Source: a virus. From it: DNA of 20,077 nt. Positions 6,912-17,083 of the stretch are shown piece by piece; within the stretch, counting starts at the first letter, position 1; each line of letters opens with the position of its first letter. The stretch spans positions 1 through 20,077 of the IMG/VR virus record IMGVR_UViG_3300034980_000340; one strand, given 5' to 3'. The notes below the pieces were generated by a model. That model was not told the DNA's origin and searched no databases. It saw only the letters and a list, made by a program, of their open reading frames with translations. A program made the position numbers and the translations under genes.

Positions 6912-7382
6912 ATGAAGAAAGTTAAACATATTCCGGTTTCCGAAATTAAAAATAAATACCATGTTTCACACATGGGGACGATTCACAATATCAAAACAAA
7001 GAGAAAGTTAAATGGGTGGGTTTCAAAATCCGGCTATCAATATTTTGACTTATACCTAGGTAAAGAAGATCGTTATTCAGCCCATAGGCTTATCGCTACC
7101 TTTTTTATACCAAATCCTTTTAATTACCCGTGCGTGAATCATATCGATGGCGATAAATCAAACAATATTGTTGATAATTTAGAATGGTGCACGCATCAAG
7201 AAAACACCATTCATGCCTATAAAAAAAATTTAATAAAAAATAGAAGGGTCGGGAGATTCACCAGTAAGAAACTCGATATGGTTAGGTATTTATATAAAAA
7301 ATACTCACAAGATGATATAGCGGAATTGCTAGGTGTTACTCAGGCAAACATAAGCGTTGTTTTGAAAATATTTGAAAAATAG
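6912..7382 (+). CDS. HNH homing endonuclease with C-terminal helix-turn-helix
   Basis: This 156-residue enzyme begins with a divergent NUMOD4-like segment (residues 5-50). An HNH_3 nuclease core follows (57-102): HRLIATFF, then VNHIDGDKSNN with catalytic His77 and Asn84, then NLEWCT and the closing HA. A helix-turn-helix (about 118-154, DDIAELLGVTQANISVV) should give target recognition. Such genes are free-standing mobile elements that cut related phage genomes lacking them and are copied in. GAGAG precedes the ATG. The stop lies within the first of two dyad repeats, so insertion may have carried or landed on that repeat. It is one of three HNH genes here, each of distinct sequence. Confidence 0.85.
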   Translation: MKKVKHIPVSEIKNKYHVSHMGTIHNIKTKRKLNGWVSKSGYQYFDLYLGKEDRYSAHRLIATFFIPNPFNYPCVNHIDGDKSNNIVDNLEWCTHQENTIHAYKKNLIKNRRVGRFTSKKLDMVRYLYKKYSQDDIAELLGVTQANISVVLKIFEK

Positions 7383-7971: not shown

Positions 7972-8211
7972 ATGAATATCTGTGAACATGGAAACGAAGT
8001 ATTTATCAATGAAACCTACACTAAGGTTTATACCGAGTGCAAGGACTGTAAACGCGAGGCTGAACGATATAGAGCGCTAGAGCGATTAATGAAGCTATAT
8101 CCCCATAATTATTTATATTGCTCGAATCATGATTGTAACAATATATTTAATAGGGTGAGCCAGCACTGTAAACGCTGTGGTTCGGAACCTGATCGGGAAG
8201 CTGTATATTGA
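7972..8211 (+). CDS. Small zinc-ribbon-like protein
   Basis: This 79-residue protein carries cysteine pairs that could bind two zinc ions: an early C4/H6 with CKDC at about 23-26, and CSNHDC with CKRC in the last third. The middle is a charged helix (REAERYRALERLMKL). It begins seven bases after the peptidase-like gene. Zinc-ribbon proteins of this size often bind nucleic acid or host polymerases, but the specific role cannot be read here. Its stop overlaps a possible TTG-started hydrophobic peptide. Confidence 0.62.
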   Translation: MNICEHGNEVFINETYTKVYTECKDCKREAERYRALERLMKLYPHNYLYCSNHDCNNIFNRVSQHCKRCGSEPDREAVY

Positions 8212-8270
8212 AATTATTACTTATTTACTTATCTTTCGTTTTATTAATACTATTATTTACAGGGGTGTGA
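8208..8270 (+). CDS. Possible 20-residue hydrophobic peptide
   Basis: A TTG at 8208, overlapping the previous TGA, opens a 20-residue frame reading MKLLLIYLSFVLLILLFTGV, a single membrane segment with a signal-like start. Translation would depend on coupling. The composition may be chance in A+T-rich DNA, hence low confidence. Confidence 0.25.
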   Translation: MKLLLIYLSFVLLILLFTGV

Positions 8271-8322
8271 TTCGATTTACATAATGTTCATAAATGTGTA
8301 ATAGAGGGTATTCCTTTTTGAG

Positions 8323-8362
8323 AGTAGGGTGTCACCCTCCCGTGCCCCTACTTTCTTCTTTA
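8323..8362 (+). terminator. Possible Rho-independent terminator
   Basis: AGTAGGG (8323-8329) pairs with CCCTACT (8346-8352) and is followed by a pyrimidine-rich TTCTTCTTT tract. The upstream arm also takes part in an odd palindrome, GGGTG-T-CACCC (8327-8337), so two exclusive folds are possible. It lies in the leader between the small early genes and the replication genes. Confidence 0.35.
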
Positions 8363-8422
8363 CAATACAAATCCATCAAGCTAATTACTTACTCGGACTT
8401 TCCAAATCCAAAAAATACACAC

Positions 8423-8451
8423 CTGTTAAAATGTATTGCCGTACATATAAC
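8423..8451 (+). promoter_or_regulatory. Possible promoter for the replication operon
   Basis: TATAAC (8446-8451) is a good -10 match, with a weak -35 (CTGTTA, 8423-8428) 17 bases upstream. Transcription would start near 8458, so the RNA would begin with the hairpin at 8455-8494. Only the -10 is convincing. Confidence 0.28.
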
Positions 8452-8454
8452 AGT

Positions 8455-8494
8455 AACCCCGTTCATGATCTCGGAAAGTCTCATGAACGGGGTT
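8455..8494 (+). promoter_or_regulatory. 14-bp perfect inverted repeat in the replication leader
   Basis: AACCCCGTTCATGA (8455-8468) is exactly complementary to TCATGAACGGGGTT (8481-8494), with a 12-base loop. Only TTT follows before ATATA, so it is a weak terminator at best. It ends eight bases before the GGAGG of the replication initiator, so it may be a 5' stabilising hairpin, an attenuator or an operator. The rest of the 242-base leader (8271-8512) holds no gene I can support. Confidence 0.55.
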
Positions 8495-8512
8495 TATATA
8501 TCGGAGGCTTAA

Positions 8513-9850: not shown

Positions 9851-10246
9851 ATGTCATCAGTAAATAAAGTAATTTTATTAGGAAGATTAGGAAGCGATCC
9901 AGAACTTAAATACACACCATCGAGTACAGCGGTTTGTAATTTCACCATGGCAACATCGGAGAGTTATACCGACAAACAGGGTGAGAAGAAACAAAACACC
10001 GAATGGCATAGAATTGTTATTTGGAGTAAATTAGCCGAGTTGTGTAATCAATACTTATCTAAAGGGAGCCAGGTATTCTTAGAGGGTTCTTTACAAACTA
10101 GGTCTTGGGAAAATAAGCAAGGTGTGAAAATGTACACCACCGAGATAGTTGCTAGATCGGTTCAGTTTTTAGATGCGAAATCGGATAATAAGAAACCCGA
10201 GGATAGTAGCGCGCAAGAGTTTACTACTGACGATATTCCTTTCTAA
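9851..10246 (+). CDS. ssb: Single-stranded DNA-binding protein
   Basis: The protein has 131 residues and is a complete bacterial-type SSB. The OB fold runs from about residue 3 to 108: NKVILLGRLGSDPELKYTP, then FTMATSES, TEWHRIVIWSKLAE, then YLSKGSQVFLEGSLQTRSW and TEIVARSVQFLD. A short polar linker leads to the acidic tip TTDDIPF, the peptide that docks partner enzymes such as primase, exonucleases and polymerase clamp loaders. GGGAGG lies seven bases before the ATG. It would coat single strands during phage replication and assist the ERF annealing protein two genes downstream. An HNH endonuclease gene follows by a TAATG overlap. Confidence 0.95.
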   Translation: MSSVNKVILLGRLGSDPELKYTPSSTAVCNFTMATSESYTDKQGEKKQNTEWHRIVIWSKLAELCNQYLSKGSQVFLEGSLQTRSWENKQGVKMYTTEIVARSVQFLDAKSDNKKPEDSSAQEFTTDDIPF

Positions 10247-10767
10247 TGAAAGAGAAATGGAAACTTATAAACAGTTCATATAACTATATGGTGAGCAATA
10301 AAGGCAGGGTTAGGTCGTTAGATAAAAAAGGTAAGAATGGGAGATTTTTTAAAGGAAAACTCTTAAACCTTGTCGACTCTAAAGGTTATAGAGTTGTGAA
10401 TATTTGCTCCGAGGGTAAGCGGAAAATAAACAAGGTGCACAGACTGGTTGCCGAGGCTTTTATAGACAACCCAGTAAATAAACCATGTGTTAACCATATC
10501 AACGGAATTAAGCATGATAATCGAGTAGAGAATCTTGAATGGTGTACAGTCTTAGAGAATAATGTTCATTGTTATAATATGGGGCTAAACAAAGGGAGAT
10601 CGTTATTTGATGAAATACAACTATTGACGATATACACGTTTATAAACAAAAGAAAAACTAGAGAGCTGTGTGAATTGTATGGTAGACCCAGGGTTACAAT
10701 ACAAAAAATAAAACAAGGTAAAAGTTATAAACATTTTTTCGGGAGGATTTTTAATGAATGTGTATGA
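10246..10767 (+). CDS. HNH homing endonuclease (NUMOD4-HNH-HTH)
   Basis: This 173-residue enzyme has three parts. A NUMOD4 segment (residues 3-55: EKWKLINSSYNYMVSNKGRV) comes first. Then the HNH core (65-108: HRLVAEAFIDNPVNKP, VNHINGIKHDN with His84 and Asn92, NLEWCT). A helix-turn-helix-like end follows (about 122-160, RELCELYGRPRVTIQKI). It is a free-standing mobile endonuclease placed between ssb and the ERF gene. It starts on the last base of the ssb stop and ends 14 bases inside the ERF gene. Its own coding sequence holds GGGAGG (10741-10746), the ribosome binding site of ERF. So precise a fit suggests the element now expresses the downstream gene by coupling. Confidence 0.88.
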   Translation: MKEKWKLINSSYNYMVSNKGRVRSLDKKGKNGRFFKGKLLNLVDSKGYRVVNICSEGKRKINKVHRLVAEAFIDNPVNKPCVNHINGIKHDNRVENLEWCTVLENNVHCYNMGLNKGRSLFDEIQLLTIYTFINKRKTRELCELYGRPRVTIQKIKQGKSYKHFFGRIFNECV

Positions 10768-14262: not shown

Positions 14263-14617
14263 TTTTATGGAGCAATTTAAGGACGTTAAAATATCGTTTG
14301 ACTCCGATAGGGATTATACAAATTTAGATTCTATGATTAAATATTCTAAGAATTTAGAAGAAAAACTAAAAGCCTGTGAAGCCGAGAGGGATAAATTAAA
14401 AGGAGAGGTTAAATGGTTTAACCAGATACTATCAGGAAATAGTAAGGGTTTAAGTAAAAAATTCCAAGCCCTAGAGAAGATTGCTAGGGAGGGGTTAGAA
14501 AGAATTAGAAACTATAATCTACATGATGACGAGGGGTTTAGAATTTTAGAATGGTTAAGAGTAGACGCTAAAGATTACCTAAAGAAAATAGACGAACTAA
14601 TAAAGGGAGATAAGTAA
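14255..14617 (+). CDS. Hypothetical coiled-coil protein
   Basis: The 120-residue protein is charged and helical, with a clear coiled-coil stretch about residues 28-60 (YSKNLEEKLKACEAERDKLK). A second helical part ends KKIDELIKGDK. The start may be GTG 14255, with AAGGA eight bases upstream, or ATG 14267. Its stop overlaps the amidase start by one base (TAATG), so it is co-translated with the endolysin. No enzymatic motif or membrane segment; role unknown. Confidence 0.6.
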   Translation: MNDFMEQFKDVKISFDSDRDYTNLDSMIKYSKNLEEKLKACEAERDKLKGEVKWFNQILSGNSKGLSKKFQALEKIAREGLERIRNYNLHDDEGFRILEWLRVDAKDYLKKIDELIKGDK

Positions 14618-15336
14618 TGTTTAAAAAACTATTTAAAAGTATAAAGTATTTTTTCACTAGAGGGCGAAATAAACCTGTTTATAGATCCGAGGCTAAACCT
14701 GTAGAGAACAAGCCAGACGAAACACCCATAATAAGACTACGTGATATGTATCCAAAGGCATCACACCGAGAAGATATGAATCTATTTCACTCTCCTTATA
14801 AATTTAAATTTGATAAAGATCACTATTTTATAATTCATTTCACTGCGGGTTGGAGAAACCGAAAGTTTAAGGATTTTGCTAAAAGATTTCTAGAGAAAGG
14901 TTTAAACACCATGTATCTAGATGAGTCCGGTATTTTGTGGCAACAGGCACATGGGGACAGGTGTGGATATCACACAGGAAGCAAGTCTTATGTTAATGGT
15001 AAGAATATTAGTAAAAAATCAGCAGGGGTTGAAATCGCTTGTGGTGGTAGATTAAAGAATGGGAAAACATGGTTCAATCAAACCATCCCGACCAGTGATA
15101 AAAGAACCGTAACCACCGATCAGGGTTATGTTATTGCGGGAGATTATCAGAAATATACAGCGGCTCAAGAGAAGGAGCTTGTTAACCTATTAAAGTGGGT
15201 AGTATCTAAAGGTTTACCACCAGAGAATATATTGGGTCATGATGAAATTAGAAAACGTGGTGAAAAGAATGATCCAGGTGGTTCATTATCTATGCCTCTA
15301 AAAGAATTTATACAGAGAAAGGTTATAGGAAACTAA
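14617..15336 (+). CDS. N-acetylmuramoyl-L-alanine amidase (amidase_2 endolysin)
   Basis: This 239-residue enzyme cleaves the bond between N-acetylmuramic acid and L-alanine in peptidoglycan, releasing progeny phage. The amidase_2 fold spans about 66-235. Zinc ligands are likely His74 (FIIHFTAG), His208 (ILGHDEI) and Asp219 (NDPGG), with the supporting motif CGYHTGSKSYVNG (116-128) and SAGVEIAC. A basic N-terminal extension (residues 1-35, KKLFKSIKYFFTRGRNK) precedes it and lacks a signal peptide, so export would need the holin. It lies nine kb from holin and spanins, so the lysis genes are split. The previous gene overlaps by one base. Confidence 0.87.
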   Translation: MFKKLFKSIKYFFTRGRNKPVYRSEAKPVENKPDETPIIRLRDMYPKASHREDMNLFHSPYKFKFDKDHYFIIHFTAGWRNRKFKDFAKRFLEKGLNTMYLDESGILWQQAHGDRCGYHTGSKSYVNGKNISKKSAGVEIACGGRLKNGKTWFNQTIPTSDKRTVTTDQGYVIAGDYQKYTAAQEKELVNLLKWVVSKGLPPENILGHDEIRKRGEKNDPGGSLSMPLKEFIQRKVIGN

Positions 15337-15361
15337 TAACCAACTAAAATACTCGTTTGAC

Positions 15362-15407
15362 ATCATGTTCTATCCCTTAAACAATTAATATAAAGGGATA
15401 GCATGAT
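15362..15407 (+). promoter_or_regulatory. Hairpin burying the start site of the 53-residue ORF
   Basis: ATCATG-TT-CTATCCCTT (15362-15378) pairs with AAGGGATAG-CATGAT (15393-15407). The result is a 15-bp stem with a 2-base bulge and a 14-base A+T loop. The downstream arm contains both the ribosome binding site (AAGGGA) and the ATG at 15403, so folded RNA should block translation. A TTGACA (15357-15362) just upstream could be part of a promoter, but I see no well-spaced -10. Confidence 0.6.
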
Positions 15408-15564
15408 CAAGCATAAAGAAAAAGAGAAGGTATTTATTAGCTTCACTAAGCTAGATGCGAATAGAGAGCATTATCTTAGAAAGTTAGTAGATGGTGAGAT
15501 AGAAATCTATATCTTCACCAAGGACTTTCCGCCACTAAAGATATCCCTAGCCGAATTAAGCTAG
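15403..15564 (+). CDS. Small protein, likely under hairpin control
   Basis: The 53-residue ORF is basic at the start (MIKHKEKEKVFISFTKL) and beta-like later (GEIEIYIFTKDFPPLKISL). It starts at ATG 15403, seven bases after AAAGGGA. Both are inside the hairpin at 15362-15407, and its final codons form the upstream arm of the hairpin that covers the next gene's start. It may act partly as a leader peptide whose translation opens the phosphoesterase gene. No family recognised. Confidence 0.55.
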   Translation: MIKHKEKEKVFISFTKLDANREHYLRKLVDGEIEIYIFTKDFPPLKISLAELS

Positions 15565-15577
15565 GGGGAAATATCTT
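15538..15577 (+). promoter_or_regulatory. Hairpin burying the start site of the phosphoesterase
   Basis: AAGATATCCCTAGC (15538-15551) pairs with GCTAGGG (15560-15566) and, after a 4-base bulge, ATATCTT (15571-15577). The stem is 14 bp with an 8-base loop. It holds the GGGGG ribosome binding site and the ATC start at 15573. The stop of the 53-residue ORF (15562-15564) lies inside it, so a ribosome finishing that ORF would melt it. No U-tract follows, so it is not a typical terminator. Confidence 0.58.
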
Positions 15578-16277
15578 CAAATCAATTTTAGTAATTCCGG
15601 ATTTACATTGTCCCGTAATGCACCAAGATTCGTTTAGGTTTATTAAATGGGCTAAGGATCAATTCAAACCAGATAAGGTTGTTTGTTTGGGTGACGAGCT
15701 AGATTATCACGTCCTATCTTTTCATGAGACAGAATTAGAGTGCCCTTATAATGGCTCACAAGAATTTGAAGAGGGTAAAAAGTTCTTCTCGAATCTATAC
15801 GATATGTTCGATGAAATGGACATACTAGAATCTAATCATGGGTCTATGGTTTACCGAAAAGCTAAATCGTGCGGGATACCTAGAAGTTTTATGTATAGTT
15901 ATAAGGATGTTCTAGAGGCTCCACCTGGTTATAAATGGCACAATAGCTTAATCTTAAAAGCCTCAAACGGTCATGAGATAGAATTTCATCACGGTAACAT
16001 ATCACCCAAATGCCCTATGAGAAGATCACAACTAACTGGACGCTCTCAAGTGCAGGGGCATCATCATAATAGTTTCGAAGTTAGATGGTGGTTTAACGGG
16101 GATAGGTATATTTTCGGATGCACCAGTGGTTGTTTAATCGACGATGATAAATACGCATTTCTTTATAATAAAAACAATTTAGCTAGGCCTATGCTTGGGT
16201 TAACCTGGATACACGAAGGTATCGCCTATCCTGTACCTATGGAGCTAGATAAAAATAAGAGGTGGATTCATGCCTGA
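15573..16277 (+). CDS. Calcineurin-like metallophosphoesterase, apparent ATC start
   Basis: The protein has 234 residues from ATC 15573, beginning M-FKSILVIPDLHCPV. Metal-binding motifs are in family order: D-x-H (Asp10, His12), GDELD (40-44), SNHG (87-90, the GNH[DE]-type block), HGN (140-142) and GHHH (162-165). The first conventional start, ATG 15618, would remove the D-x-H motif, so it is rejected. The enzyme would hydrolyse a phosphate ester; phage members of this family act on nucleotides, nucleic acid ends or proteins, and the substrate here is unknown. GGGGG precedes the start by four bases, and both are in a hairpin. It overlaps the next small gene by eight bases. Confidence 0.82.
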   Translation: MFKSILVIPDLHCPVMHQDSFRFIKWAKDQFKPDKVVCLGDELDYHVLSFHETELECPYNGSQEFEEGKKFFSNLYDMFDEMDILESNHGSMVYRKAKSCGIPRSFMYSYKDVLEAPPGYKWHNSLILKASNGHEIEFHHGNISPKCPMRRSQLTGRSQVQGHHHNSFEVRWWFNGDRYIFGCTSGCLIDDDKYAFLYNKNNLARPMLGLTWIHEGIAYPVPMELDKNKRWIHA

Positions 16278-16588: not shown

Positions 16589-17083
16589 ATGGATCAGGTC
16601 CATAACGAAGAATGGCGCAAATTGCCAGAAACTATTTACTCAGTCTCGAGTAATGGTCAATTCAGAAACGATAATAACGGATATATTAAAAAACAGACTC
16701 CAACTAAAGATGGGTATTTAACCGTAAATATCCAAGGTAAAACATTTCAATCTCATAGGTTAGTTGCAAAATGTTTTCTAGATGATTTTAGTGAGAAAAA
16801 GGTGGTTAATCATAAGGATTTTAACCGGAAAAACAACGCTATGTATAATTTAAATATGTGTACGATTAAGGAAAACGCGCAACATTCCGCCAAGGTGGGT
16901 AGATATAGAAGATTCGGGGAACTCAATAATAATTGTAAAGTATCCACCGAGACAGTCTTGATGATAAACACATATTTAGAGAGTGGTCTTAATTGCGCTG
17001 AAATATCCAGGAAAACGGATATATGCAGAAGATATATAAACGATATAAAACTAAAAAAGAAGAGAGTTTTATGGAAAGATTAA
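16589..17083 (+). CDS. HNH homing endonuclease with helix-turn-helix
   Basis: This 164-residue enzyme has a NUMOD4-like start (residues 8-50: EWRKLPETIYSVSSNGQF) and an HNH core (56-99: HRLVAKCF, VNHKDFNRKNN with His75 and Asn82/83, NLNMCTIKEN, closing H99). A C-terminal helix-turn-helix follows (about 118-158, CAEISRKTDICRRYINDI). AAGGGGGAT lies just before the ATG. Its last 13 bases overlap the start of the methyltransferase gene, so like the other endonucleases here it is fitted between core genes and coupled to the one downstream. It is clearly divergent from the other two HNH genes, so they are probably independent arrivals rather than recent duplicates. Confidence 0.85.
   Translation: MDQVHNEEWRKLPETIYSVSSNGQFRNDNNGYIKKQTPTKDGYLTVNIQGKTFQSHRLVAKCFLDDFSEKKVVNHKDFNRKNNAMYNLNMCTIKENAQHSAKVGRYRRFGELNNNCKVSTETVLMINTYLESGLNCAEISRKTDICRRYINDIKLKKKRVLWKD

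Follow-up and report, generated by a model that had tools for sequence, protein, structure and literature searches.

The hok/mok system is controlled by the antisense RNA Sok and by 3′ processing, and mok overlaps hok. The masked start in this system is opened via coupling to an upstream ORF (uORF), accompanied by processing and refolding of the RNA (PMC11228461). Hairpins masking the ribosome binding site have been described for genes e, soc, 49 and I-TevI of phage T4 (PMC3014915, PMC2988022), and coupling through RNA structure for MS2 coat-lysis and rpmI-rplT (PMC12548453). Starts at which initiation is restrained by IF3 include those of infC, ATT in E. coli and ATC in Streptomyces, and the GTC start of sigR (PMC5472188).

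Here we analyze a locus in a virus record of 20,077 bases with 37% G+C (the window, i.e. the whole stretch of DNA studied), in which the starts of two successive genes are predicted to be masked by RNA structure. An earlier interpretation of the same DNA (the sequence-only reading) knew of no described element of such a layout; the absence of any precedent is not supported, as the T4 hairpins, hok/mok, MS2 and rpmI-rplT already show the component controls. Searches with terminase, amidase and DNA gave no close relatives, and the nearest records possibly lie outside the searched set. The features of the locus are as follows.

14617-15336, plus strand: amidase_2-type endolysin, the gene preceding hairpin A (Pfam Amidase_2, E 4e-10)
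15356-15411, plus strand: hairpin A, masking the Shine-Dalgarno sequence (SD) AAGGGA (15393-15398) and ATG 15403; -17.2 kcal/mol, z -4.1
15357-15385, plus strand: promoter-like TTGACA-17-AACAAT spanning A's 5′ arm and loop; 10/12 consensus positions
15403-15564, plus strand: 53-codon ORF for a small protein without known family, predicted beta fold (codon score, SD)
15426-15578, plus strand: long predicted helix (15426-15434/15570-15578) joining the ATC start to the early ORF (MFE)
15435-15489, plus strand: predicted hairpin C, within the ORF (MFE; z -3.7 against synonymous recoding)
15492-15520, plus strand: predicted hairpin D, within the ORF (MFE; z -3.7 against synonymous recoding)
15538-15577, plus strand: hairpin B, with the stop TAG 15562-15564, part of the SD AGGGGG 15563-15568 and ATC 15573-15575; -16.0 kcal/mol
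15573-16277, plus strand: metallophosphoesterase with a putative ATC start (phrog_221, E 1.6e-45)

We propose that the region 15356-15578 forms a two-stage translational lock, with an internal promoter in hairpin A and translational coupling at hairpin B, and give this a probability of about 0.42. On mRNA arriving from the endolysin side hairpin A would fold and ribosomes would be kept off the 53-codon ORF. Transcripts starting inside A, from a promoter over its 5′ arm and loop, would lack the 5′ arm and allow the ORF to be translated. Ribosomes finishing the ORF at 15562-15564 would then clear B and the long helix, after which the same ribosome would reinitiate, or another would initiate, at the phosphoesterase's weak ATC. 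As judged from the folding models, the 53-codon ORF is probably silent on any transcript that does not begin within hairpin A, and translation of the phosphoesterase probably depends on prior translation of the ORF.

All structures were predicted, with a single program. In hairpin A residues 15356-60 pair with 15407-11, 15363-67 with 15402-06 and 15370-78 with 15393-401, and its energy was matched by 0/200 shuffles. The SD AAGGGA and ATG 15403-15405 are fully paired, in long context too (unpaired probability 0.00-0.01), as had been claimed from the sequence for a slightly short span (15362-15407, refined here to 15356-15411). As a start-region structure A ranks 1/42 (z -6.1, the next being -3.0), and when 39 gene starts of the window are compared by the energy needed to free their ribosome sites, the ORF comes first (17.4 kcal/mol, hairpin A) and the phosphoesterase second (15.6 kcal/mol, hairpin B); such ranks are descriptive only, since the start list was built from ORFs and the locus was chosen for its hairpins. 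In these models both starts are unusually occluded, hairpin A being the stronger of the two and B alone modest (z -2 to -3).

Transcription from the promoter-like site would be expected to start near 15392. The second hexamer of this site is poor and the count of such sites in the region is not above chance. Opening the ribosome site of A was computed to cost about 19 kcal/mol on read-through RNA vs 1.3-4.9 kcal/mol on RNA starting at 15386-15395, and 1.3-4.6 kcal/mol for starts near 15392; in the model A is held shut by its 5′ arm, and an internal promoter in A would be the source of lock-free mRNA. Exact TTGACA is scarce (3 vs 10.7 expected, both strands of the window together), and the pattern across 1-20077 looks as if stray promoters were avoided.

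Hairpin B, in which 15538-51 pairs with 15560-66 and 15571-77, has a z of -3.3 in a tight window and of -2.2 in the 70-nt start window, and its folding is equalled by 2% of synonymous ORF recodings. The long helix is in competition with its lower stem. The ORF stop codon sits in the 3′ arm of B. The ATC is paired with a probability of 0.95-0.99 in long context, where the long helix and B's lower stem share it; in an isolated 121-nt context it is unpaired at 0.41. The SD is partly hidden (AGGG paired, GGAA in a bulge; 0.24 unpaired), so the earlier description of B stands for the ATC and the stop codon and only in part for the GGGGG. Freeing the B site was computed to cost 11-17 kcal/mol, its opening cost exceeding that in 95% of synonymous ORF recodings, and 0.1 kcal/mol with a ribosome on the ORF stop codon; in the model a ribosome at this codon opens B, and translation of the phosphoesterase would be coupled to that of the ORF. 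Two features of a coupled pair were found by computation: the stop and the start are close (8 nt apart), and the second start is occluded when the ORF is not translated. The cascade outlined in the sequence-only reading thus agrees with the computations as to the occlusion of both starts and the release of B by a ribosome at the stop, which takes the opening cost from about 14 down to 0.1 kcal/mol; it named no trigger for A. Compared with the phosphoesterase starts of relatives, B is not exceptional (rank 4-5 of 91). A correlation of ATC starts with structure in relatives was considered and rejected, given this rank of the window and the unremarkable structure at L094, another locus with ATC.

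The same cascade could run without an internal promoter, if A were opened in trans by a protein, a small RNA or an RNase cut and the ORF ribosomes then opened B. The evidence of occlusion and coupling is identical for the two readings, and processing, refolding and uORF coupling in hok/mok provide a precedent (PMC11228461), but we consider opening in trans unlikely: no candidate trigger was seen, and A remains closed in the model across 15-37 °C, so a simple RNA thermometer was rejected. The endolysin stop codon (15334-15336) lies about 20 nt ahead of stem A (15356), and a ribosome stopping there is too distant upstream for amidase translation to serve as the trigger.

The 53-codon ORF is probably a real gene; its codon score is in the true-gene range and above that of stop-free wrong frames, and an SD followed by an ORF of such length appears in 0.2% of shuffles. 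Homologues were found neither among phage records and viral contigs nor in PHROGs. The single-sequence AlphaFold2 model of its product (pLDDT 70) has four strands and gave no significant match in fold comparison. The RNA is itself strongly folded: the predicted fold of 15340-15620 is much more stable than those of shuffled sequences (z -6.3), and against synonymous recodings z is -5.0 for the ORF interior and -4.5 for the interior plus B. Hairpins C and D and the long helix, absent from the earlier note, emerge from the present modelling. A direct repeat, ATATCTTCA at 15509/15571, was rejected as an alternative switch, its pairing probability being about zero at the positions checked. Rfam gave 0 matches in the window at gathering score, and 15250-15700 gives chance-level hits only.

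It could be argued that such folds are incidental or help to stabilize the mRNA, and that the two genes are simply weakly expressed. Strong hairpins in this phage generally exceed chance (31 vs 9-18 in shuffles) and B alone is modest. Hairpin A, however, is a z -6 outlier located exactly on the SD and ATG, and the two costliest starts of 39 adjoin each other; we regard incidental structure as quite unlikely. Among 199 stretches of 200 nt across the window, structure is strongest in 15301-15500 and in one from the 8211-8512 region. The latter region, ~300 bases in which no ORF makes a convincing gene, lies ahead of a replication-type gene; it has strong hairpins at 8301-8356 and, with a stem of 14 pairs, near 8455-8495. 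Putative NUMOD4/HNH homing endonuclease ORFs are scattered in the window at 6912-7382, 10246-10767 and 16589-17083, of which the family search covered 16589-17083.

Hairpin A has a counterpart in another group of phages.

15353-15399, strand not assigned: stretch like the Asteriusvirus gp387 start hairpin, in opposite orientation to the gene; 40/47 identical
L258:1502-1565 (Escherichia phage 121Q 177983-178046), plus seven other Asteriusvirus records: gp387 start hairpin

The match (85%, 51 bits, E 9e-5) was obtained with a 71-base query, which hit a palindrome lying between two genes in Asteriusvirus jumbo phages. Scores of this kind can be raised by palindromic sequence and by SD motifs; of 24 decoy hairpins run alongside as a control, the best reached 40 bits. 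The Asteriusvirus element lies in the gp386-gp387 gap and masks the gp387 start in 8/8 genomes read; we know of no description of this hairpin. In 121Q a TG-extended TTGACA-18-TATAAT, with 12/12 sigma-70 positions, extends across the 5′ arm of the hairpin. No second site of this quality occurs within the 3 kb scanned; the promoter is kept in the 8 genomes read, and its first hexamer is overlapped by the gp386 stop codon. The computed cost of opening the gp387 site is 13-18.6 kcal/mol when masked vs 3.6-6.4 kcal/mol on RNA from the embedded promoter, expected to start 25-27 nt ahead of the gp387 ATG.

The sense strand of the Asteriusvirus element corresponds to the minus strand of the window; the element being a palindrome, the start is masked in both. 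As the match runs opposite to gene orientation, what the two phages have in common may be a palindrome in the DNA rather than an RNA signal. Taken further, hairpin A would be a DNA element common to Asteriusvirus, an operator or a recombination/insertion palindrome, and the masking of the start a by-product of its symmetry, and the identity of the central 19 bases and the single copy in Asteriusvirus genomes are in line with this. We find it very unlikely, since in the window bulges CA and TT on one arm only shift the DNA dyad out of register, and in both phages the stem covers the next gene's SD and start codon. The outer stem is TCATG/CATGA vs TTGTG/CACAA, so that, if the alignment is right, two pairs differ on both sides and pairing is kept; these double changes hint at covariation, in two lineages only and of opposite orientation, and within Asteriusvirus no pair was changed on both sides.

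A farther-reaching form of the translational lock, which we hold to be decidedly doubtful, would make the ORF a dual element, at once a coding leader and a full-length RNA lock gating an ATC that only terminating ribosomes use, with the hairpin-promoter module moving between unrelated phages. If this were true, phosphoesterase synthesis would require that A be open, that the leader be translated to its end and that initiation be permissive.

The ATC at 15573 is the likeliest start of the phosphoesterase gene, as first suggested from the sequence and supported by comparison with relatives. The reading frame contains no ATG, GTG or TTG from its last stop to the DxH metal-binding motif, which is intact downstream of the ATC, and the ATC aligns with the ATG of short-form relatives, e.g. 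those of Pelagibacter phages. An in-frame ATG is present in 95 of 102 distinct short-form loci, only GTG in 4 and only TTG in 1; the 2 with no canonical start are this window and contig L026/L094, whose ATC takes the place of the ATG in L095, a 68%-identical relative located on the contig of L045. The latter ATC is surrounded by a long hairpin (L026:3921-4003), right after a short upstream ORF. In Pelagibacter-phage-like loci (L006, L072, L081 and others) there are small hairpins, for instance TACAAG-GATAA-CTTGTA, just ahead of the phosphoesterase ATG and ending on it; they are weaker than A and B but recurrent.

That the ORF and the phosphoesterase belong to a single gene, divided by a programmed -1 frameshift or a sequence error, with the ATC no start or a misread ATG, is highly improbable: upstream of the ATC the phosphoesterase frame has no stop for 25 codons, many relatives have N-terminal extensions and a point error in the assembly could have arisen at the ATC, but this extension scores as non-coding while the ORF is coding up to its stop, no XXXYYYZ slip site was seen by eye in the ORF frame (a programmed -1 frameshift was rejected), the ORF does not resemble the N-terminal domains of relatives, to which fusion was likewise rejected, and the ATC stands exactly at the ATG of short-form relatives, L026 independently having ATC there.

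How the proposed two-stage lock compares with described systems can now be stated. As in T4 gene e and I-TevI, the SD and AUG are predicted to be hidden on read-through RNA, and a promoter in the 5′ arm and loop would yield stem-free RNA; the T4 promoter is a late one, whereas here there is a weak sigma-70 match, and, unlike in the T4 type, a second start, probably coupled, follows. T4-type hairpin control would thereby extend to an unrelated phage. The Asteriusvirus gp386/gp387 hairpin is alike in its stem on SD and ATG, its similar loop and its predicted release by an internal promoter, and differs in its opposite orientation, perfect promoter and other downstream gene; this conserved and apparently undescribed hairpin with its embedded promoter is directly testable, since Asteriusvirus phages grow on laboratory E. 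coli, and would make a good laboratory model of T4-type hairpin control. As in hok/mok, the masked start of the second gene would be reached only by translating a short upstream ORF. Here, however, the ORF does not overlap the second gene as mok does hok, neither an antisense RNA like Sok nor 3′ processing was seen, and the product is a metallophosphoesterase and not a toxin, so that the locus falls outside the toxin-plus-antisense class. With MS2 coat-lysis and rpmI-rplT it shares an upstream ribosome that would open the structure over the next start, but here the first gene is itself locked and the second start is ATC. By alignment, this ATC occupies a conserved N-terminus, as do the ATT, ATC or ATA of the infC type, and as in infC and sigR a non-canonical start would hold initiation low, here in a phage gene. 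The use of the ATC and the timing of the lock are inferred; the gene is a candidate for non-canonical ATC initiation aided by coupling. On the whole the controls resemble those of phage T4 and hok/mok, and the locus combines known kinds of control and is no new type of switch.
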